28,728 nucleotides of DNA from a virus: IMG/VR virus record IMGVR_UViG_3300018868_001120, positions 1 through 28,728 of that record. One strand, given 5' to 3'. How positions within the stretch are numbered: position 1 is the first letter of the stretch; each line of letters starts with the position of its first letter. The notes below the pieces were generated by a model that was given only the letters and a program-made list of their open reading frames with translations, was not told the DNA's origin and did no database searches. The translations under genes and the position numbers were made by a program. Positions 9,287-26,582 of this stretch are shown here, piece after piece.

Positions 9287-9636
9287 CATCAAGAGAACAC
9301 ATTGAATCGCTTTTGAGTAAATGCTTATTGGCAAACATTCGCATATCCTCTGAAACAAAGACATTGAAAGAAGGCAGGCTTCTTTTGTTTTGTGTAAAGG
9401 ATTTCTTTTGCATATTCACATTGGTGAGTTTAACCAACCCGACAAAAAAATTCATATATGAATTACCATATCCTTTTGATATAGCTAACATTGATAATAG
9501 GATTGTTCTTGACTACACTGTGAAGACATTCTGTATGTACAATAAGAATATTGACACACATCTCACAAAAATAAAGACGCAGAAAGCCTCAAAATTCTAT
9601 AATAAGAAGTTGTACATACAGAGAATTCCATTATAA
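9283..9636 (+). CDS. Hypothetical phage protein
   Basis: A 117-aa protein of unknown function. It has a helical start (MTSREHIESLLSKCLLANIR), a beta-rich middle (LLLFCVKDFFCIFTLVSL, KKFIYELPYPFDIA) and a very basic end rich in Lys and Tyr (about residues 85-117), which would suit nucleic-acid binding. There is no signal peptide or clear membrane helix. The start is fixed by the ATGA overlap with the preceding gene, and the stop lies just before the -10 of the helicase gene. It sits among replication and repair genes, so a role in DNA metabolism is possible but unproven. Confidence 0.6.
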   Translation: MTSREHIESLLSKCLLANIRISSETKTLKEGRLLLFCVKDFFCIFTLVSLTNPTKKFIYELPYPFDIANIDNRIVLDYTVKTFCMYNKNIDTHLTKIKTQKASKFYNKKLYIQRIPL

Positions 9637-9637
9637 T
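9610..9637 (+). promoter_or_regulatory. Sigma70-like promoter before the helicase gene
   Basis: TTGTAC (9610-9615), a 16-nt spacer and TATAAT (9632-9637), then 6 nt to the GTG at 9644. The -10 overlaps the stop of the preceding gene. Confidence 0.6.
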
Positions 9638-9643
9638 TATAGT

Positions 9644-11284
9644 GTGCTGACAAAATATTTATCATATTTTCCAAAAGGGTATGATCCAAGCCCCAGTCAG
9701 ATAAAGTTAATTAAGCGAGCTGAACAAGCTTTTAACTCTGGAAAAAAATTTGTAATCTGTTGTGCACCAACAGGCACTGGCAAGAGTTTTTTAAGCCGGA
9801 CAATTGCTGGTGCAGGCAGCAAGCCTTCTGAAAAATTTACACAATCAATTAATGACTATTCAGGATACAAGCAAAGCTATGAAGGGGACTTTGTTTCAGA
9901 AGAAGAACTCTTGCAAGAGCCGCCACATGGTACATTTGTCTTGACCATAACCAAAACACTACAAGATCAATATTTGGGCTTATTTCCAGAAACTGACATC
10001 TTGAAGGGTAAGACCAATTACATCTGCAATGTAGACAATAGCTATGACGTTGAAACTGCTCCATGTGTTTTCCTTGACGGATTAAAAGACACATGCTGGC
10101 AGACATCAAAATGCGCATATTATAATGCAAGAAATAAAGCTCTTTTATCAGAGTTTTCAGCTCTTAACTATAAGATGTTTCTGGCTCTTCCCAAGCATCT
10201 AAAAAGAAAGAACTTTATTATATGCGATGAGGCATCAGAGCTTGAGGACGAGCTTGTAAAACATTTTTCAGCAGAAATTAATTATGAGAGACTGCAGCGC
10301 GCCGGTATTGAGTGTAATGTATTGATCACGGACAATAAGCAACGAGCTTACACTTGGGTAGCTGAGCTAGGTTGCACAGTGAATGCAAATGTAGAAGATT
10401 TAAAAGAAAAATTTAGAAAAACTATAAAAAGAAAGGGACGTATAGCGCCAGCAGACCGCGCAAAATATCTCTACCTTAAGAACGTCTTTAATGCCTTGGT
10501 TAAGATTACTGAACTATGGACCAGCTGTGATTATGTTATTGAAAATAATTCTAAACAAGTCACCTTCACGCCATTGCGCGTAGATGGCTTGACAGATCAT
10601 ATATTTGATTATGCAGATCATGTGTTGCTTATGTCTGCAACTATTATTGATCATGCACATTTCGCCAAAACATTGGGCATAACAGACTATACATACATTG
10701 AAGTTGAGAGTGATTTTGATCCTAAAAGATCGCCCATATATGTTTCATCCAACAACAGATTAAACTACAAAAATTTAACAAATTTATTACCTGCCATAGC
10801 TGATCAAATCAAGACAATTGTAGCACATCATGAAACAGAGAAAGGCATAATACACACACATTCACATGAAATAACAAACATCTTAAAGAAAAAGCTTGAG
10901 GATGATAAACGCTTTCTTTTTCGTGATGAGTTTGCTAAGAATGATGAGATCCTGAGACGGCATTATGAAACAGACAGCCCCACAATTCTTGTTTCACCTT
11001 CCCTTGCATATGGTATTGATCTTAAAGATGATCTAGCAAGATTTCAAATCATTGTAAAGCTACCGTTCTCACCATTATTTAACAAGCGAATAAAACAGGT
11101 ATTTGAGAATGATAAAATCTGGTATGAGAATAAGATGTTAAATACGTTAGTGCAAGCATGCGGCCGAGCAACAAGAGGTAAGGATGATTTCTCGAGCACC
11201 TATATTCTTGATGGTAACATCGTTAATACACTCAAACGCACCAAAGATAAGCTTCCTAAGTATTTTATTGACCGTGTCTGCTAA
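9644..11284 (+). CDS. DinG/XPD-family Fe-S DNA helicase
   Basis: A 546-aa superfamily 2 helicase of the Rad3/XPD/DinG group, expected to unwind DNA 5'-to-3'. Walker A is APTGTGKS (41-48). Four cysteines lie where the iron-sulfur cluster sits, after KGKTNYIC: Cys128, Cys141, Cys151 and Cys157, the last in SKCAYYNAR. Motif II is DEAS (195-198) in place of DEAH. LLMSATII is motif III-like, IIHTHSHE starts the second RecA domain, and QACGRATRGKDD is motif VI with the arginine finger. It has a GTG start with TATAAT 6 nt upstream and no Shine-Dalgarno. The likely role is repair or recombination-linked replication, possibly in place of T4 UvsW or Dda; that substitution is inference. Confidence 0.85.
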   Translation: MLTKYLSYFPKGYDPSPSQIKLIKRAEQAFNSGKKFVICCAPTGTGKSFLSRTIAGAGSKPSEKFTQSINDYSGYKQSYEGDFVSEEELLQEPPHGTFVLTITKTLQDQYLGLFPETDILKGKTNYICNVDNSYDVETAPCVFLDGLKDTCWQTSKCAYYNARNKALLSEFSALNYKMFLALPKHLKRKNFIICDEASELEDELVKHFSAEINYERLQRAGIECNVLITDNKQRAYTWVAELGCTVNANVEDLKEKFRKTIKRKGRIAPADRAKYLYLKNVFNALVKITELWTSCDYVIENNSKQVTFTPLRVDGLTDHIFDYADHVLLMSATIIDHAHFAKTLGITDYTYIEVESDFDPKRSPIYVSSNNRLNYKNLTNLLPAIADQIKTIVAHHETEKGIIHTHSHEITNILKKKLEDDKRFLFRDEFAKNDEILRRHYETDSPTILVSPSLAYGIDLKDDLARFQIIVKLPFSPLFNKRIKQVFENDKIWYENKMLNTLVQACGRATRGKDDFSSTYILDGNIVNTLKRTKDKLPKYFIDRVC

Positions 11285-18370: not shown

Positions 18371-18413
18371 TATAAACGGTCGACAATGTATTATTTTGGA
18401 GAAAAAAATAATT
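18371..18413 (+). promoter_or_regulatory. gp23 leader: TATAAACG late-like box and GGAG ribosome binding site
   Basis: TATAAACG (18371-18378) matches six of eight late-box positions. It is followed by about 35 nt before the ATG at 18414, with GGAG at 18398-18401. A T4-type start near 18384 would give a leader of roughly 30 nt. This is the clearest Shine-Dalgarno ahead of any gene here; its 12-nt spacing to the ATG is long. Confidence 0.5.
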
Positions 18414-19877
18414 ATGGCAAATAAAGTTCGTCCTACACAGGCTTACATCGATGAAAGTCGCGCCAGAGTGTTGCTTGAAAAGTGGAGTCCAGTATTGGAT
18501 TACTCTTCCAACAACGTCAAGGCGATTGAAGATGATCACACGCGTTTGAACACTGCTATTCTCTTGGAAAACCAAGAGAAGTGGTGCTTCGAAGCTAGCA
18601 ACACTGCTGGCGGCACGGGTGGCGTTTTTGGTAGTGTGGATGTTGGTGGTACTGGTGGCAGCTTCGGAAATTCCGATAGCTATGCTGCTGGTGATCAACG
18701 TCTACCTAAGATTCTCATTCCGATGATTCGCAGAACGTTCCCTGAGTTGATCACTAACGAAATCGTTGGTGTTCAGCCCATGAGCGGCCCCGTAGGTTTG
18801 GCTTTTGCGCTACGTTACAAGTACGAGAATGACGCTTTGGGCACATCCAATGGCAAGACCGATGGGTCTTACTCTGGTGGTGCACTACAGCCTCAAGATC
18901 AGTCGGATGCGGCTGAACTTGGGTATCACTATCTCGACACAAGATACACTGGCACATCTTCTGGCTCTTTAGCTGGAAATAGTGACTTTGAAATTCTTGC
19001 GTCTGATAGCGGTGTCGCTAAAGTACTCAAGGACTACGAATTAACTTCAGGAATTCCACAGATTGTAGTAAGTTTCGAAAAGACAGCCGTTGAGGCTGGT
19101 ACTCGTAGACTCGCTGCTAAATGGTCTGTTGAACTCGAGCAGGATCTTAAGAACATGAATGGTATCGATATCGATACTGAGCTCACAAACGCTATGTCGT
19201 ATGAGCTACAGGCCGAAATCGACCGTGAAATGATCATCAGAATGATTCAGACGGCTCTTAACGGTGGCTACGGCCGCGGTTATTCCATCTGGTCGCCTGC
19301 TTCTGCAGACGGTCGCTGGCTAGTCGAGAGAAATCGCGACTTCTATCAGAGACTGATCATTGAAGCTAATCGTATCGCCGTTCGTAACCGCCGTGGCTCG
19401 GCTAACTTCGTTGTTGCAACACCTCGTGTGTGCGCAATCCTCGAAATGTTACCTGAGTTTCAGTGGGTACCCGTACAGGGTAACGTCAACACTCAACCTG
19501 TTGGCGTAGCAAAAGTTGGATCACTTGGTGGCAGATTCAATGTTTATCGTGACACACGTACAGAAGCCCAGTTCGAGTTGAGCACCGGTGGTGCCTCAAA
19601 CTTCCCTGGGAATTCTCGTCGTACCGCGAGACTTGAATACGCTCTCTTGGGATACAAGGGACCTGAGTTTTATGACACTGGTATTATCTACTGCCCTTAC
19701 ATTCCTGTAATGGTGCAGAGAACAATTGGACCGAATGATTTCGCTCCTCGCGTGGGTCTTATGACCCGCTACGGGGTTGTCGACAATATATTTGGCGCCA
19801 ACTTGTATTACCACGTCATCATCCTTAAGGGTCTCGGTGTGGCGTTTACGCCTGGCACTCAATCAGTCTACTTCTAA
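18414..19877 (+). CDS. gp23: Major capsid protein gp23
   Basis: A 487-aa HK97-fold capsid protein. I start at the ATG at 18414 (MANKVRPTQAYIDESRARVL), 12 nt after GGAG, and not at the in-frame TTG at 18396. Conserved gp23 segments are RLNTAILLENQEKWCFEASN, LPKILIPMIRRTFPELITNE then IVGVQPMSGPVGLAFALRYK, IPQIVVSFEKTAVEAGTRRL followed by AAKWSVELEQDLKNMNGID, and VVATPRVCAILEMLPEFQW. Prohead protease should cut in the N-terminal 70 residues; WCFE|ASN is a candidate but does not match LxE exactly. Base composition is clearly richer in G+C than neighbours, with CGT/CGC, AAC, ATC and TTC codons, as expected for the most expressed phage protein. It is followed by a strong terminator. Confidence 0.96.
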   Translation: MANKVRPTQAYIDESRARVLLEKWSPVLDYSSNNVKAIEDDHTRLNTAILLENQEKWCFEASNTAGGTGGVFGSVDVGGTGGSFGNSDSYAAGDQRLPKILIPMIRRTFPELITNEIVGVQPMSGPVGLAFALRYKYENDALGTSNGKTDGSYSGGALQPQDQSDAAELGYHYLDTRYTGTSSGSLAGNSDFEILASDSGVAKVLKDYELTSGIPQIVVSFEKTAVEAGTRRLAAKWSVELEQDLKNMNGIDIDTELTNAMSYELQAEIDREMIIRMIQTALNGGYGRGYSIWSPASADGRWLVERNRDFYQRLIIEANRIAVRNRRGSANFVVATPRVCAILEMLPEFQWVPVQGNVNTQPVGVAKVGSLGGRFNVYRDTRTEAQFELSTGGASNFPGNSRRTARLEYALLGYKGPEFYDTGIIYCPYIPVMVQRTIGPNDFAPRVGLMTRYGVVDNIFGANLYYHVIILKGLGVAFTPGTQSVYF

Positions 19878-20383: not shown

Positions 20384-21304
20384 TTACTGTCTTACTGTTT
20401 TAGTAAAGTACTTAAACTTATCCCACATGGCATGATTCTGTTTTAATAGCTCATGGCTACTGGCTCTAATGGGATTAATGTCAATGCCACCACGTCTTAC
20501 ATACAGACATGCCACCATCAGTTCCTCTGGCTTGACCAGATCATGCAACCGCTTGTAAATTGTTTCACAAATCTCTTCATGAAAATGACATTCATCTCGG
20601 AACGAAACTATGTATTGCAGCAAAGAGGTCTGATTCAACTCACAAGGTCCTTTGTAATGAATGTACACATCCCCCCAGTCCGGTTGAGATGTGACCCTGC
20701 AATTACTCTTTAATAGGGCTGAATGAAAGCGCTGCACTCTGCTTGTGTCACTCTGTAGCCATCCAAGTAATGCTGGATCCTCTTTGTAGCCTCTGGACTT
20801 AATGGACGTTACATCAATATTATTTTCCAATGTGGGATATGATGCACTTGGAAACAAAGACGGATAATGCATTGCATCATCAACTGCTTTTGTAAGACGA
20901 ACATAGACCTGCACATCAGCTTCTAATAGAGCAGATAGATCCTTGGCAATTGTCTGCTCCAGCTGTTGCAACACATTAACTATATTGCCGCTGTACTTCT
21001 CCATGTTAAAAGAATTCATGTACAGCTTTATGGATTTGGACTCCACAATGTATTTGTTTGTTGCAGGATATACACACTTGGCAATGGCAGAAATAGGCAT
21101 ACCTTCATTTGTTAAGCATGACACTTCATATGCATTCCACACATCATACCCCACAAAAGGAGGACTCTCATCAGATATGTTCAAATGCTTTCTGTTGTTC
21201 TGTCTTGGTTCGCGTACCAATAGTGAGGGATCATAGGTCGATATGTACCCAGTTATCTTACCAAGATGCTTTGATATGTTACTGTTATCTAATTCCGTAT
21301 TCAT
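20384..21304 (-). CDS. queF: 7-cyano-7-deazaguanine reductase QueF (preQ0 to preQ1)
   Basis: A 306-aa NADPH-dependent reductase turning preQ0 into preQ1, of the bimodular E. coli type (282 aa) with two T-fold halves. The QueF motif is YIVESKSIKLYMNSFN (Glu88-Ser89-Lys90-Ser91). The catalytic pair Cys202 and Asp209 lies in LLKSNCRVTSQPDWGD, and His242-Glu243 in FHEEICE matches the E. coli 'FHEQCVE' substrate site. RRGGIDINPIRAS is the conserved C-terminal signature. With Cys, Asp and Glu intact it should be a true nitrile reductase, not a QueF-like amidinotransferase. It is last in the minus-strand modification operon, overlapping the kinase gene by 20 bp. No preQ0 synthesis gene (folE, queD, queE, queC) is in the window. 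Confidence 0.93.
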   Translation of the reverse strand: MNTELDNSNISKHLGKITGYISTYDPSLLVREPRQNNRKHLNISDESPPFVGYDVWNAYEVSCLTNEGMPISAIAKCVYPATNKYIVESKSIKLYMNSFNMEKYSGNIVNVLQQLEQTIAKDLSALLEADVQVYVRLTKAVDDAMHYPSLFPSASYPTLENNIDVTSIKSRGYKEDPALLGWLQSDTSRVQRFHSALLKSNCRVTSQPDWGDVYIHYKGPCELNQTSLLQYIVSFRDECHFHEEICETIYKRLHDLVKPEELMVACLYVRRGGIDINPIRASSHELLKQNHAMWDKFKYFTKTVRQ

Positions 21305-21863
21305 TGAGTTTTATTTTAATTGCTTCCATGCGCTCTTCCACTGTTCCTTTTAAAATAGTTAACTTTCCCTTTAACCTCTCATCCTTAAGCCAACAATTTT
21401 CATACGAATCAATAATTGCATCTCTAAATTCCTTGTTAATGCTTCTCTCACCATCATCCTCCAGAGGCACATCATGAGGACTTGGATAAAAAATATGATC
21501 ATACTTGTGAATATAATTCACATAGTACATGAGACCCAGACTGTTGGACACAGGAAAATCTTTTAACCTATTATAGGCGAAATAACTTGTATATATCATA
21601 CCATCCATAATGCACCTATCATGAAGTGCACCTTCAAACTTACTCAACTTGTAGTCAAATAGTAAATTCTCAAATTCTTTATTCAATATTAGAGTTTGAG
21701 TCACATCGTTTGCTCCTGACTCATTTATATCAACTCCATACTCACGGCTAATTAACCTTGTGACTTCATCTACATACCATAACTTGGAACCATAAAACCG
21801 TTTGCACTCCTTGAGCAGCGTAGTTTTACCGGAGGATTGAGGGCCTGTGAAGCTGAATATCAT
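21285..21863 (-). CDS. P-loop kinase-like ATPase (AAA_28/NadR type)
   Basis: A 192-aa P-loop protein. Walker A is GPQSSGKTT (7-15), VDEVTR follows the second strand, and HDRCIMDGMIYT (about 81-92) has the Asp-Arg and Asp of the 'hDR...D' lid/Walker B region found in small nucleoside or nucleotide kinases and the NadR ribosylnicotinamide kinase domain (AAA_28). The size fits a stand-alone kinase. It starts in an ATGA overlap with the 45-aa gene and overlaps queF by 20 bp, so it belongs to the DNA modification operon. Phosphorylating a modified nucleoside or base precursor is a plausible but unproven role; NAD salvage is the main alternative. Confidence 0.7.
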   Translation of the reverse strand: MIFSFTGPQSSGKTTLLKECKRFYGSKLWYVDEVTRLISREYGVDINESGANDVTQTLILNKEFENLLFDYKLSKFEGALHDRCIMDGMIYTSYFAYNRLKDFPVSNSLGLMYYVNYIHKYDHIFYPSPHDVPLEDDGERSINKEFRDAIIDSYENCWLKDERLKGKLTILKGTVEERMEAIKIKLNEYGIR

Positions 21864-21997
21864 TTCTTGATCAGTCTCGTATAGTCTAATTCAATGTCAT
21901 ACAGAAGTTTTTTAAGCATCCTGATTTCTTCACGAAGTATTTTATTTTCGTTCAAAGCGCTTTCCAAGTCCTTTTTCATATTTTTTCCTTGCTTCAT
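21860..21997 (-). CDS. 45-aa coiled-coil small protein
   Basis: A small gene starting at the ATG complementary to 21995-21997 (a second ATG is 18 nt further on) and ending TGA at 21860, sharing ATGA with the kinase start. The peptide starts MKQGKNMKKDLESALNENKI and continues LREEIRMLKKLLYDIE, a clear single amphipathic helix with leucine/isoleucine heptads and many charges, so probably a dimeric coiled coil. The overlap, the absence of any other gene in the 154-bp gap, and the regular heptads argue it is real. Function unknown; it may tether or regulate a neighbouring enzyme. Confidence 0.65.
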   Translation of the reverse strand: MKQGKNMKKDLESALNENKILREEIRMLKKLLYDIELDYTRLIKK

Positions 21998-22017
21998 AAA
22001 ATTTAAAAAACTAAATA

Positions 22018-22365
22018 TTATTTCGCCCATTTATTATTATAAACTATCTCTGCAATAATGCAATACACTGCAGAGTCCTTGAACGCATCCATAACTGGTT
22101 CATTTGCAGTCTGAAATGTCTGCTTCTTGAGCACCAGATTTATAAGACGTTGTATTTTATCATTGAGTCTGACTACTATTGCAGAGATGGATGCAATTCT
22201 ATCTTCTTTTTTATTTAAATCAGATCCAAGAGAAATATTGCCTGGACCGTAATCAAATTGTTTCTTGCAAAACATCACATAATGTTCCTGCTGTATCTTT
22301 TTAAATTCCTTGACTGTTTCAGGAAAATTCTCTTCCACATATTTTATAACATCCTCTGTATTCAT
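22018..22365 (-). CDS. Nmad1 / DUF1599 nucleotide-modification-associated protein
   Basis: A 115-aa protein if started at the ATG at 22365 (MNTEDVIKYVEENFPETVKE); an in-frame upstream start would run into the formyltransferase gene. The signature HYVMFCKKQFDYGPGNISLG (K.qhDYGpgNI), then IVVRLNDKIQRLINLVLKKQ and NEPVMDAFKDSAVYCIIAEI, is that of DUF1599, named Nucleotide modification associated domain 1 because it clusters with phage DNA base-modification genes. The all-helical fold with D/N/E residues resembles MazG/dUTPase-type NTP pyrophosphatases, so it may remove an unwanted nucleotide. Here it lies 4 nt after the formyltransferase and in the dpdA/queF operon, which fits the family's name. 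Activity is unproven. Confidence 0.8.
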   Translation of the reverse strand: MNTEDVIKYVEENFPETVKEFKKIQQEHYVMFCKKQFDYGPGNISLGSDLNKKEDRIASISAIVVRLNDKIQRLINLVLKKQTFQTANEPVMDAFKDSAVYCIIAEIVYNNKWAK

Positions 22366-22369
22366 AATT

Positions 22370-22942
22370 TTACTCTTCCAAGATCTTGTATGCTGTAAAA
22401 AAACTTTTCCAGAGCTCAAGTGCAGTGACTCTCAATGCACCATATACATCATTAAGTGTCATGCCATCAATACCTATGCCTTGACTCATTAATATCTCTC
22501 CTTCATCTACACCTGGCGTGACCTTATGAATGACACATCCTGCGAGCTTGTACCCCTCTGTAAATGCTCTTTCCTGCGGATTGAATCCCTTCAGCGCAGG
22601 ATACTTGTTAATTAATCCTGGATGCAAATTATACATCTCATACCGCTCACAAACTTCTTTTGGTACTATCTTTAAGAAGCCATGCAGTGTTACTACAGGA
22701 TTTTTAAATTTCTCCAAAACATAATTATAATCAAAAACTGACAGTCGATTGGGAGGCATCTCATGCCATATCTCTTCATTTAATTTGCTTTCTCTAAATT
22801 TTGTTATGTCCCTTAGGTTAGAGTTAATTCTCATTGGAAAGATATTATTTGTTACTATTGCTGAGGGATACACACCTAGCGCATTGCTGAGATCATGTAT
22901 CTCAGTTCCAGTTTGACTGAAGAATGCAACCCACGGTCTCAT
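22370..22942 (-). CDS. PurN-like N10-formyl-THF formyltransferase
   Basis: A 190-aa formyltransferase of the GART fold. The catalytic triad is intact: Asn105 and His107 in YNLHPGLINKYPALKG, and Asp146 in VTPGVDEGEIL, equivalent to E. coli PurN Asn106, His108 and Asp144. The family's GCVIHKV strand is present. The N-terminal loop that holds the GAR phosphate (GNGSN in PurN) reads SQTGTE (residues 9-14), so the phosphate-binding Asn has become Glu and the acceptor is probably not GAR. The ATGA overlap with dpdA makes the acceptor likely to be a base-modification intermediate: the aminomethyl group of preQ1, free or in DNA, is a primary amine fit for N-formylation. That substrate is inference. 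Confidence 0.85.
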   Translation of the reverse strand: MRPWVAFFSQTGTEIHDLSNALGVYPSAIVTNNIFPMRINSNLRDITKFRESKLNEEIWHEMPPNRLSVFDYNYVLEKFKNPVVTLHGFLKIVPKEVCERYEMYNLHPGLINKYPALKGFNPQERAFTEGYKLAGCVIHKVTPGVDEGEILMSQGIGIDGMTLNDVYGALRVTALELWKSFFTAYKILEE

Positions 22943-23769
22943 CGTCTAATAATCCTCTTAAACATTGCAGTGTTATACTTCACAAGTTCAAGCTGATCAT
23001 CTGTTAGCTCATGTGTAATGAGATCAGCTAATTTTGCTGCAGGTTTATTTGACAACCCATAATCTGCATCATACTTCAATCCATGCATAGCAGCAACAAT
23101 GGGATTGCTGGTATCGCAACTAACAATATTGCTAATATTTCCATCCACATAATGTCTAAACTCTCTGGCCAGAGAACATCCTAGCAAATGATGAGGCTTG
23201 TTCCAATTCCATATGCCCGTACTTATTAAATCTGCAATGAAGTGTTGTCGACCTGAACACCATCTCTCGAGGGGGTTATTACCCTCACCTGTGATTTGAT
23301 AGTAACTAAAATCAAAGCTAATGGCAATCATGTCTGCATTATCGGACATGAACTTGTAACACTCCTTGAGCTCATGCCAATTCTTGCCCTGAATGGCTCC
23401 AATAGCTTTTGTTTGAAATGCGTTTCCTATACTGTTTCTCTTGTCACTAAACTCCCTGAAGCTCTGCACAGTGCCATGCTTGTCCTCTAGCACATCAGGT
23501 ACAATGTACATGTTCGGCTCAATATCTAGCACAGATTTATAAAATTCTGCTGGATCAAAAGCTTTACCAAGCTCAAATATGGAGTTGTCCAGCAGCACTT
23601 CACGATCATGCAGAGACCTACCAAATTTATAAAAATTATAATAGGCTAATTGTTCTGGTGAGCCTGTATTTTGATGCAAAAGGTGCACAAGGCAGTAGTC
23701 AAAATCATTATAGGTCTTTGAATATTCTAATAAGGATACAGGCGATTCATGAGATACTTTCATTAGCAT
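22939..23769 (-). CDS. dpdA: DpdA, DNA 7-deazaguanine transglycosylase (TGT-like)
   Basis: A 276-aa TGT-barrel protein of the short phage type. Motifs follow tRNA-guanine transglycosylase order: LLDNSIFELG (Asp61, base-contacting Asp), YIVPDVLEDKHGTVQSFREF, AIGAIQGKNW (123-131), HHLLGCSLAREF and VSCDTSNPIVAAMHG with candidate nucleophile Asp219. The C-terminal CxCxxC zinc site of tRNA-acting TGT is not seen. Family members exchange guanine in DNA for a 7-deazaguanine. With queF in the same operon, the expected base is preQ1. The start at 23769 lies 6 nt after a TATAAT with a TTGAAT at 16 nt, and the next gene overlaps by ATGA. A tRNA-acting role cannot be excluded by sequence alone. Confidence 0.8.
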   Translation of the reverse strand: MLMKVSHESPVSLLEYSKTYNDFDYCLVHLLHQNTGSPEQLAYYNFYKFGRSLHDREVLLDNSIFELGKAFDPAEFYKSVLDIEPNMYIVPDVLEDKHGTVQSFREFSDKRNSIGNAFQTKAIGAIQGKNWHELKECYKFMSDNADMIAISFDFSYYQITGEGNNPLERWCSGRQHFIADLISTGIWNWNKPHHLLGCSLAREFRHYVDGNISNIVSCDTSNPIVAAMHGLKYDADYGLSNKPAAKLADLITHELTDDQLELVKYNTAMFKRIIRR

Positions 23770-23775
23770 AACTAT

Positions 23776-23803
23776 ATTATACGTGTAAATATTATATATT
23801 CAA
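23776..23803 (-). promoter_or_regulatory. Sigma70-like promoter of the dpdA-queF operon
   Basis: On the minus strand, TTGAAT (23803-23798), a 16-nt spacer and TATAAT (23781-23776), then 6 nt to the ATG at 23769. It overlaps the leader and late box of the divergent gp5 gene. Confidence 0.65.
23784..23791 (+). promoter_or_regulatory. Possible late promoter TGTAAATA before gp5
   Basis: TGTAAATA, one mismatch to TATAAATA, 13 nt before the ATG at 23805. It is the one late box with a longer gap, and it lies inside the dpdA promoter spacer. Confidence 0.45.
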
Positions 23804-23804
23804 G

Positions 23805-26582
23805 ATGAGCGCGCAGAAATACTACGGAAATTATTTAGGTATTGTTGTTCAGAATAATGATCCGCTTAAGCGCGGTAGAATTAAAGTCTTTATTCCACAT
23901 ATTACACCCACAGCTTATAATAATTGGGTTTCAAGTCTTTCCGCTTCCGATAAATCATTTAAATTTATTGGTAAAAACATAGACAGCAGTCTTTCAACAA
24001 TAACTGATGAGCTTAAAAAAATTCTACCTTGGGCTGACATTGCAGCTCCATTAGTAGGTGAAAGCTCCAGTGGGAGATTTAATCAGCAATATGATTCAGG
24101 TACCATTAGTGACAGCAGCAACATACATTCAACTCTGTACAGCAATCAATCTGCAGTTCAAAACAAACTTACAAAATATAGTCAAAACATAGATAATATT
24201 GGTGAAAAGCCCGGTAATATTTTTGATATTGATTACTACAGGTTGAAGGATGCGTTTAGTGATCCAGTAGAAAACAATGTTAATAATGTCAATAAACTCA
24301 GCTTCAATTATACCCCTGAATGCTATAGTAATAGTGCCCGAGGTGCATTTCCTGTTATTAATGTTGGAGCGCATGTTTGGGTATTCTTTCATGCAGGTGA
24401 CCCGCTTACACCTGTTGTTTTTGCTGTAGCTCATGGTGCACAAGACTGGAGCAGTATTTTTCAAGCCGGAAGTGCATTTACTGCCTTTGATAATAATGTT
24501 GATAGAGTCGACGAGGGATTGGATTATCCTGGAACATATGAAAACAAAAAAAGCACTGACAAATTTAATTGCTGTGATGTTGACTCTTATAGAAACAAAT
24601 ATGTTATAAATCAAAAAGGCGGCACACTGGCGTTTATTAATTCTGATAAACGTGAAGCGCTCAAGCTCACACATTACTCTGGATCGTTCTTAGAATTTAA
24701 CAACCACGCCACAATATCATTAGCATCATCTAATGATCAAAAACTTGTCTTGAATGATCAATTTCTAACTGTGCAAGGGGATAAGAATACATTTGTTAAG
24801 AGAGATTTTGATACTGTTGTGCAGGGTGATTCCTACAGAAAAATTGGCAACCTCAAGGCTGGTCTACATAAACGATGGAAGATGATTATGCAGGAGATAG
24901 CTGATGTTAAGCAGTTGTTTGACATAAAGCGCGCCGAAAAACTTGACAGTGATCTCTTGAGACTTACATCATCCCTGCAATCTCGCTCTGGAGATTTCGC
25001 TGAATGTCCAGTATGCAGCACATCTAAGAACAATTATTTTTCAATGAACAATTCATTCAAGGATGGCTTCAAGAATGAAGTGAAGTCAACTGTCGCAGAT
25101 TCTGCAGGTGATCAAATTTATGCTACTGGGTTTGATGGACCAAGTGTGAAGTATGCGGGGCAACTTGGTCAACCTGAATTTAGTGCAGCAAGCAAATCAT
25201 TAAATCGATCAGTTGATGGATCTTCATATTCAGGTGGCAGAGGTAAGGTCATGGGCATAACCTGTCCTGCATGTGGTGGATCAGGAAAAAGTCCAAGCTC
25301 ACAAGATGGTAAGTGGAATACAGAGCAACGAAAGAAGAATCTAAGTAATATGTACAAGAGCAAACAGTCTGATTTGCTTGATATAGAGAGAAAAATGGGC
25401 ATGGGTGGTAGTGAGATTGTTGAAATAACAAAACATAAAATTGAAACAATAGGCCTAACTATGAATGATTTTGGATCTATCCGTGTTGATAGTAAAGGTA
25501 AGATGTATATTTCTGAAGTGCTGGTAGGTAAGTATGGGCCTATCTTCAACCGTACTCCAACGCCATTGGTAGAGCTAGTTCATGTTGATGACCTGCCAGG
25601 TGGCAATTACACTTTGAACGTTTGCAATCGGTATAATGTTCTAGTTGGAGCAGGAGGGTTGAATCTCAAATCATATGGTGTCGTTAATATATCTGGTTCA
25701 TTAACAAATATTGCTGGCGCACAAGTTAATATTGCCAGTGAGAATGAGGTAAATATTGATGGCGGAAAACGACTGTCATTAGTGGGAGATGTTGTAAGCA
25801 TAAGACAGCGTGATAGAAAGCAAGTAGTTATTGATGGTTCTCTTGGTGTAACAAACAATGTTACTATTGCTGGTGGGTTGCATGTTGAAGGTGAAATAAC
25901 TGGACATCATATCACAATACCAACTGAAATACAAGCAACAGAACAAGCCAAGATATTTGCTGCAGCATCGACATCACCAGCAAATACAAATGGTAAGATC
26001 ATTGGGTTTGGCGTACCAATGTCAAACTACGCAATGCCTATTAATGGCACACATTATGTAGAGAATGTTCCAAGCTTTACTGGCCCACCATACATGGGCT
26101 TCACTGATGCTGCACAAGTGTGTGGCAGAGTGGTAACAAATACTATAATTGGCTTTATTGATATTGGTCAAGTTCTATCACCATCCTCCCCGATGATACC
26201 TTGCGGTCAAGGTTGTTACCCAGGTCCTAACACCAGATATATACCAGTATATGCCTCTGCTTCAGGTACGCGTGGCGGTCCTGATGTGCCTGTGTTTGGA
26301 TCTGGTCTTGGTGGTGGTAATAAACTCGCCTCAGGGCCAAACAGGGGCTCTGTAAAGGGTGCAGATACAGGCACTGGTGGTGCGTTAGCTGCAAAAATGC
26401 CTATAATTGTATACGGTACAGGGAGAGATGAAGATAGTATAACTGTATATCCGCACAGCCACTTGTTCAAGGGCATTGCATCAACACAAGTTGATTCAAA
26501 TGCTCAAGTAAGAGGCATTGTCGAGGGTGCCCATAACTCTGCTGCGCTTAATAGCAATCCGCCTGTCAATGCAAAGAAATAA
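23805..26582 (+). CDS. gp5: Baseplate hub protein gp5 (no visible lysozyme domain)
   Basis: A 925-aa hub/spike protein. The N-terminus YYGNYLGIVVQNNDPLKRGR is the gp5/VgrG OB-fold start, completed by RGAFPVINVGAHVWVFFHAG then DPLTPVVFAVAHG (about 179-211). In place of the T4 lysozyme domain there is a helical region (about 345-395) and two CxxC knuckles, CPVC (401-404) and CPACGGSG (487-494), which could bind zinc. The stretch 600-700 (VVNISGSLTNIAGAQVNIAS, VVIDGSLGVTNNVTIAGGLH) is the beta-helix spike. The end carries HSHLF (His884, His886), a metal-like tip motif, after a Gly/Pro-rich loop (815-860). It is convergent with the next minus gene, with stops adjacent. Confidence 0.85.
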   Translation: MSAQKYYGNYLGIVVQNNDPLKRGRIKVFIPHITPTAYNNWVSSLSASDKSFKFIGKNIDSSLSTITDELKKILPWADIAAPLVGESSSGRFNQQYDSGTISDSSNIHSTLYSNQSAVQNKLTKYSQNIDNIGEKPGNIFDIDYYRLKDAFSDPVENNVNNVNKLSFNYTPECYSNSARGAFPVINVGAHVWVFFHAGDPLTPVVFAVAHGAQDWSSIFQAGSAFTAFDNNVDRVDEGLDYPGTYENKKSTDKFNCCDVDSYRNKYVINQKGGTLAFINSDKREALKLTHYSGSFLEFNNHATISLASSNDQKLVLNDQFLTVQGDKNTFVKRDFDTVVQGDSYRKIGNLKAGLHKRWKMIMQEIADVKQLFDIKRAEKLDSDLLRLTSSLQSRSGDFAECPVCSTSKNNYFSMNNSFKDGFKNEVKSTVADSAGDQIYATGFDGPSVKYAGQLGQPEFSAASKSLNRSVDGSSYSGGRGKVMGITCPACGGSGKSPSSQDGKWNTEQRKKNLSNMYKSKQSDLLDIERKMGMGGSEIVEITKHKIETIGLTMNDFGSIRVDSKGKMYISEVLVGKYGPIFNRTPTPLVELVHVDDLPGGNYTLNVCNRYNVLVGAGGLNLKSYGVVNISGSLTNIAGAQVNIASENEVNIDGGKRLSLVGDVVSIRQRDRKQVVIDGSLGVTNNVTIAGGLHVEGEITGHHITIPTEIQATEQAKIFAAASTSPANTNGKIIGFGVPMSNYAMPINGTHYVENVPSFTGPPYMGFTDAAQVCGRVVTNTIIGFIDIGQVLSPSSPMIPCGQGCYPGPNTRYIPVYASASGTRGGPDVPVFGSGLGGGNKLASGPNRGSVKGADTGTGGALAAKMPIIVYGTGRDEDSITVYPHSHLFKGIASTQVDSNAQVRGIVEGAHNSAALNSNPPVNAKK

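Follow-up and report, generated by a model that had tools for sequence, protein, structure and literature searches.

How some phages replace every guanine of their DNA, when other phages that carry the transglycosylase DpdA replace about one third, is an open question, on which a six-gene operon of a T4-like phage bears. The operon is located at positions 20384-23769 of the window, i.e., the whole stretch of 28,728 nucleotides (nt) analysed here (IMG/VR record IMGVR_UViG_3300018868_001120, positions 1 to 28,728). Six open reading frames (ORFs) are indeed found on the minus strand, from 23769 down to 20384, with ATGA overlaps or short gaps, as listed in the initial annotation: dpdA, a formyltransferase gene, an Nmad1 (DUF1599)-like gene, a 45-amino-acid (aa) ORF, a P-loop kinase gene and queF. 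We consider it likely that this operon replaces guanine in phage DNA by N-formylated 7-aminomethyl-7-deazaguanine (preQ1), in the manner of the DpdA3/formyltransferase type.

The dpdA gene (22939..23769, minus strand) encodes a protein of 276 aa, a putative DpdA3-like guanine transglycosylase. No match was found in Pfam or NCBIfam, but the protein matched phrog_19058 (1e-48) and was 42-43% identical, over 91-95% of its length, to proteins of Flavobacterium phage immuto and of the CP220 group of Campylobacter phages, to which its matches were limited among 50,697 phage records. Because a sequence-profile search against solved structures, including tRNA-guanine transglycosylases (TGTs), gave no match up to E 10, we turned to a fold model. 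The AlphaFold (AF2) model had a predicted local distance difference test (pLDDT) score of 92; its best Foldseek matches were all TGTs (2pot, E 3e-9, prob 1.00), and comparison with the solved DNA preQ0 insertase DpdA (7ui4) gave a VIA Z of 18.1 over 235 residues. Moreover, D61, D92, G197 and D219 were invariant in 63 out of 63 DpdA homologues, and Q127 was conserved in 61 of them. We take D61, D92, Q127, G197 and D219 to be the equivalents of D102, D156, Q203, G230 and D280 of the Z. mobilis TGT. The TGT-type barrel of the model and the retained catalytic aspartates point to membership of the TGT/DpdA transglycosylase superfamily, and the sequence matches place the protein in the same subfamily as the DpdA proteins of Firehammervirus and Immutovirus, presumably the set named DpdA3.

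The CxCxxC zinc motif was absent from all 63 homologues; the protein is therefore regarded as a TGT-fold relative and not as a canonical TGT. Its barrel is also trimmed, with 276 aa versus 413 in 7ui4 (about 140 fewer), and its pI is acidic. The zinc motif and the length bear on another possible role of the cassette, namely supplying queuosine to host tRNA and not modifying phage DNA. Although preQ1 is the substrate of bacterial TGTs, whose fold DpdA shares, the missing profile match to solved TGTs, the missing zinc motif, a length reduced by about 90-140 residues and the fact that N-formyl preQ1 is no intermediate of queuosine synthesis make such a role highly improbable.

The second gene (22370..22942, minus strand, 190 aa) was initially annotated as a PurN-like formyltransferase, and the family assignment held. 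The protein matched PF00551 (2e-15; 57.3 bits versus a cut-off of 26.1), and the N105, H107 and D146 catalytic triad was invariant in 49 of the 49 formyltransferases compared, which points to membership of the formyltransferase superfamily; we predict a DpdN-like dPreQ1/preQ1 formyltransferase. A true PurN, i.e., a glycinamide ribonucleotide (GAR) formyltransferase, would instead raise purine supply, and the cassette would then insert plain preQ1. Indeed, the best solved relatives are PurN enzymes, the protein falls in the PF00551 and TIGR00639 family, and annotated purN-like genes occur in some phages (phrog_9240). However, the score against TIGR00639, the PurN equivalog, was 51.6 bits, below the cut-off of 150.1, and the G-S-N loop that contacts the GAR phosphate in PurN mostly reads G-[ST]-E in these proteins. 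Furthermore, dpdA was found upstream in 72 out of the 72 best formyltransferase-anchored loci (partner-anchored counts, here and below, refer to the closest 80 loci per query, on partly shared contigs), and some cassettes with both DpdA and QueF lack the formyltransferase. A PurN function thus seems improbable. The counterpart in the dpdA-queF operon of phage immuto was 45.9% identical to the window protein.

The last gene, queF (20384..21304, minus strand, 306 aa), was correctly named. Its product matched PF14819 (7e-34) and PF14489 (1e-22), residues C202, D209, H242 and E243 and the ESKS motif were kept in 53-54 of 55 sequences, with gaps otherwise, and the TIGR03138 score was slightly below the cut-off (264.8 versus 293.5 bits). 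The protein is assigned to the family of NADPH-dependent 7-cyano-7-deazaguanine (preQ0) reductases. In the closest large relative, a 157-kb contig (G001) whose DpdA is 87% identical, genes for FolE, QueD, QueE and QueC were located at 99.7, 101.5, 103.2 and 81.3 kb, respectively. QueC was identified in 10 of 16 relative contigs; for FolE and QueD, the count was 9 of 13, and many of these contigs are fragments. Since relatives encode FolE, QueD, QueE and QueC elsewhere, preQ1 is very probably produced by the phage's own enzymes; together with QueF, these four proteins would allow its formation from GTP. One subgroup (L028-L046; e.g., L042:12269-13177) exhibited a strongly divergent QueF, whose score with the window protein was about 130 bits, compared with 400-600 for the others. 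That this protein might be a QueF-like amidinotransferase was considered and rejected, as the QueF catalytic motifs are kept.

In IMG/VR, 73 loci with a related DpdA were found, nearly all on T4-like contigs and most with the same order and site, so that the operon recurs far beyond chance. The commonest order was dpdA, formyltransferase, (GMP reductase-like gene), Nmad1, (small ORF), kinase and queF. Among the 49 DpdA-anchored loci in which the downstream sequence extended over at least 5.5 kb, the kinase was found downstream of dpdA in 48, QueF in 43, the formyltransferase in 40 and Nmad1 in 36. Conversely, dpdA was upstream in 57 out of the 57 best kinase-anchored loci and in 55 out of the 59 best Nmad1-anchored ones. 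The kinase and QueF were both present in three out of three genome-assembly loci whose DpdA was about 40% identical. On contig L332, we observed a run of queE, phosphoribosyltransferase-like, queD, folE, dpdA, formyltransferase, kinase, queF, QueC-like and MazG-like ORFs, in which the formyltransferase is profile-supported and the names of the non-profiled ORFs (queE, phosphoribosyltransferase, queD, folE, QueC and MazG) were read by eye.

From this gene content, together with the folds, the conserved residues and the genomic association, we infer the chemical steps, the product and the extent of replacement as follows. FolE, QueD, QueE and QueC, whose genes lie outside the operon (as seen in close relatives and presumed for the window phage), would convert GTP to preQ0, which QueF would reduce to preQ1. 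DpdA would swap guanine for preQ1, and the formyltransferase, using 10-formyl-tetrahydrofolate, would N-formylate the 7-aminomethyl group, either before or after insertion, yielding 7-(formylamino)methyl-7-deazaguanine (fdPreQ1) in phage DNA. Guanine-nucleotide handling, such that no normal dGTP competes, would probably be the task of the kinase and the Nmad1-like protein, joined in relatives by a GMP reductase, phosphoribosyltransferase, DUF5664 protein or inorganic pyrophosphatase. The expected benefit would be resistance to host restriction. The core of this scheme, i.e., preQ1 formation by QueF, insertion by DpdA and N-formylation, had already been put forward in the initial annotation; it fits the catalytic residues, the TGT fold, the pathway genes of relatives and the 72/72 linkage, and keeps the standing of a proposal. 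Because the subfamily includes the DpdA of Firehammervirus, in which dG is completely replaced (PMC10273834), guanine would probably be replaced to a large extent or entirely.

The kinase gene (21285..21863, minus strand, 192 aa) had been named as NadR-like but left unexplained. Its product scored above the cut-off for PF13521 (AAA_28; 2e-11, 44.8 versus 27 bits) and contains a Walker A motif of the form G-x-Q-[SC]-[ST]-G-K-[TS], in agreement with the name. Its profile also reaches the ribosylnicotinamide kinase (RNK) of NadR, a deoxynucleoside kinase and thymidylate kinases, and we predict an AAA_28 (NadR-RNK-like) nucleoside or nucleotide kinase. Of all partners of DpdA, this kinase is the one most regularly present, even in cassettes without QueF or the formyltransferase. 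It lies beside dpdA in CP220 and within the dpdA operon of immuto, and among the 50,697 phage records its relatives were found in Campylobacter and Flavobacterium phages only, nearly the same set as for DpdA.

Such an association raises the possibility that the base is exchanged before replication, at the nucleotide level. A pyrophosphatase (Nmad1, DUF5664 or MazG) would convert dGTP to dGMP, DpdA3 would act as a nucleotide transglycosylase, i.e., a TGT-fold enzyme working on a mononucleotide, to exchange the base for preQ1 (or preQ0), formylation would follow, and the kinase would lead to the dNTP used by the polymerase, so that the genome would be synthesised without guanine. The same logic is known from T4, in which a dCTPase, dCMP hydroxymethylase and dNMP kinase give a hydroxymethylcytosine genome. 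In favour of such a pathway are the reciprocal linkage of DpdA and the kinase (48/49 and 57/57 loci), the presence of the kinase at or near DpdA in immuto, CP220 and the three genome-assembly loci, its phage distribution, and the short, acidic DpdA3 barrel lacking CxCxxC. There are also precedents: in Z-genome phages, DmtZ carries out a base exchange on dAMP (PMC12884076), MazZ of phage S-2L converts dGTP to dGMP (PMC8342488), and a modified-dGTP pathway was proposed for Campylobacter phages (PMC6884629).

The candidate pyrophosphatase is the Nmad1-like gene (22018..22365, minus strand), which encodes an all-helical protein of 115 aa. Its initial assignment to Nmad1/DUF1599 proved weak: the window protein scored 15.5 bits, below the Pfam cut-off of 25, although 14 out of 26 family members also gave weak matches to DUF1599 (best E 1.8e-4). 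Foldseek returned no significant match, and the VIA list, which included 2p06 (Z 7.5 over 87 residues) and iMazG 2q73 (Z 6.0), did not rise above the helical-bundle background, AF_0060 and iMazG standing at middling Z. Alignment with DUF5664 by hhalign was not significant (prob 0.7%). As these fold searches were weak, a nucleotide pyrophosphatase function is only weakly suggested. Relatives of this protein were also seen without dpdA, in phage replication modules, where their neighbour is the gene of the clamp-loader A subunit (L328:5893-6333 and L077:7791-8345) or that of a cobalamin-independent methionine synthase (L316:5896-6330).

The position of Nmad1 is occupied by a DUF5664 gene in L049, L063 and L065; elsewhere in contigs without Nmad1, DUF5664 was found only in G009, which is the L063 cassette itself. 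DUF5664 enzymes hydrolyse dATP and dGTP (PMC12884076), and this replacement is in line with an exchange on nucleotides, as is a GMP reductase-family gene present in about 23 cassettes (NF003966, 332 bits versus a cut-off of 344). Moreover, immuto carries a MazG-like phosphoribosyl-ATP pyrophosphohydrolase (PRA-PH) gene, L054 an inorganic pyrophosphatase gene, and several of these lineages phosphoribosyltransferase genes.

Alternatively, the exchange would occur on DNA after replication, and the kinase, Nmad1, GMP reductase and phosphoribosyltransferase would only recycle the freed guanine or trim dGTP. We lean towards this second possibility, and regard exchange on DNA as somewhat more likely than exchange on nucleotides. 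Known DpdA enzymes work on DNA: the dpdA of phage 9g modifies plasmid DNA, and phage CAjan without dpdA loses all modification and becomes restriction-sensitive (PMC6884629). The TGT fold and the phosphoribosyltransferase genes in several lineages also agree with action on DNA. For Campylobacter phage infections, Crippen in 2019 reportedly found no phosphates of 2'-deoxy-7-amido-7-deazaguanosine (dADG) in the pools of infected cells, which argues against the nucleotide pathway, as do the weak case for Nmad1 as a pyrophosphatase and six DpdA-kinase-QueF cassettes without a pyrophosphatase candidate in the cassette. Nevertheless, exchange on DNA alone leaves unexplained the complete replacement, since phages of other DpdA subfamilies reach about 30% only (PMC6884629). 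Such an exchange does not require a kinase either, although no other gene accompanies dpdA so regularly, and guanine-nucleotide genes occur with it; we therefore retain the nucleotide pathway as a tentative alternative.

Several observations weigh against the proposed formation of fdPreQ1 by this operon. The closest solved relatives of the formyltransferase are GAR transformylases, and formyl transfer to preQ1 is suggested by genomic association. The window is a 28.7-kb phage genome fragment with no preQ0 biosynthesis genes inside. Finally, some relatives have DpdA and the kinase without the formyltransferase or QueF, and the final base is thus not the same across relatives. In L061, L064, L066, L070 and L075, dpdA and the kinase only were observed, followed by phosphoribosyltransferase and ribonucleotide reductase genes, with no queF or formyltransferase gene; these phages probably make a different final base.

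Among known systems, the most similar is that of Flavobacterium phage vB_FspM_immuto_2-6A (MW353175, Immutovirus), in which dpdA, a PurN-like formyltransferase gene, the kinase gene and queF also share a strand; its DpdA and formyltransferase are 42% and 46% identical, respectively, to those of the window. However, its order is partly different, Nmad1 is absent, and folE, queD, queE, a phosphoribosyltransferase gene and a MazG-like pyrophosphohydrolase gene belong to the same operon. Campylobacter Firehammervirus CP220 (CPT_0056-CPT_0057) shares a DpdA 43% identical and an adjacent AAA_28 kinase, but has neither formyltransferase nor queF beside dpdA, carries an HD plus P-loop protein upstream, and yields dADG according to the literature, not fdPreQ1. 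Z-genome phages (DmtZ, DUF5664, PurZ0; PMC12884076) similarly combine a base exchange with DUF5664-type dNTP pyrophosphohydrolases and fully replace one base; in their case, an NDT-fold enzyme exchanges the base on dAMP for purine Z, whereas the window cassette has a TGT-fold enzyme and would introduce a 7-deazaguanine. Phages 9g, CAjan, Rosebush and nt-1, with DpdA1 or DpdA2, likewise have queuosine-pathway genes and a 7-deazaguanine base exchange, but belong to other DpdA subfamilies and contain dPreQ0 or dG+ in partial amounts, which reach about 30% of G where modification is strong (PMC6884629). There, DpdA inserts preQ0, which protects against restriction, and about 28-32% of G was modified in Rosebush and CAjan (PMC6884629).

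The operon would correspond to a formylated 7-deazaguanine type already described in phages, which gives it less novelty than the initial annotation had assigned to it. In 2023, Cui et al. are said to have reported fdPreQ1, defined DpdA3, linked it to complete replacement and predicted the dPreQ1 formyltransferase DpdN. That class resembles the present one in subfamily, predicted formyltransferase and base, but its scheme is not known to include the kinase and the guanine-nucleotide genes. In the limited literature accessible to us, we found no description of a kinase as an almost invariable partner or of guanine-nucleotide genes that replace one another, and claim no priority. The reciprocal DpdA-kinase link and these interchangeable enzymes single out specific proteins for the question of complete versus partial replacement. 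Exchange on nucleotides, if true, would explain the recoding of a full genome; exchange on DNA, if true, would define the helpers of a DNA-level enzyme. Moreover, dozens of formyltransferase and kinase sequences become available for making formylated 7-deazaguanine DNA.

Regarding the layout of the operon, dpdA and the formyltransferase gene overlap by 4 nt (ATGA), and gaps of 4 nt and 20 nt separate the latter from the Nmad1-like ORF and this ORF from the 45-aa ORF, respectively. The 45-aa ORF (21860..21997, minus strand) is coiled-coil-like, overlaps the kinase gene by ATGA and was found in some relatives only; it may be dispensable. The 20-nt overlap of the kinase gene and queF is kept in relatives. 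Expression from one promoter, as previously claimed, was not borne out: a promoter-like TTGAAT-16-TATAAT site lies immediately upstream of dpdA (23776..23803, minus strand), but promoter and terminator scans of the region gave no more sites than shuffled sequence. On the plus strand, the operon is flanked by the major capsid protein gene (18396..19877) and by a gp5-like baseplate hub gene (23805..26582), both of which are oriented opposite to the cassette. The cassette lies between these two genes in most relatives, adjoining the same capsid gene in nearly all contigs and mostly the gp5-like gene too.

Further kinase copies were also observed. A second AAA_28 kinase, weakly deoxynucleoside-kinase-like, lies close to queE/queD in L093:4973-5710 (G001 104973-105710) and at 57829-58578 of G006, and a second kinase gene of CP220 is likewise present, flanked by the genes for topoisomerase and dUTPase (L078:5407-5940). 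In Campylobacter phage CC_R7, no DpdA match was found in the record, despite annotated QueE and QueD, and this phage may therefore use another insertion enzyme. The site of dpdA and the kinase in CP220 holds, in CC_R7, a DUF7487 protein and one further protein (L103:9732-12349), and only the second, distant kinase copy is left.

In the most divergent IMG/VR DpdA (L074:8869-10792; 40% identical), the Q127 position holds a His, and the ORF immediately upstream of the gene is radical SAM-like. On the contig of this phage (G010), no kinase was found with two profiles, which is either a real exception or an effect of fragmentation. In one subgroup (L004:12566-13891, also L045), the gene of a SPASM/radical SAM protein separates the kinase gene from queF, and a further base modification is possible there. 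Other cassettes include HIT-domain and ornithine cyclodeaminase/mu-crystallin family proteins (L051:5800-6165 and 9395-10321, also L053) or unrelated long ORFs, structural-protein-like, between Nmad1 and the kinase (L012:5398-6447 and L025:2883-3287).

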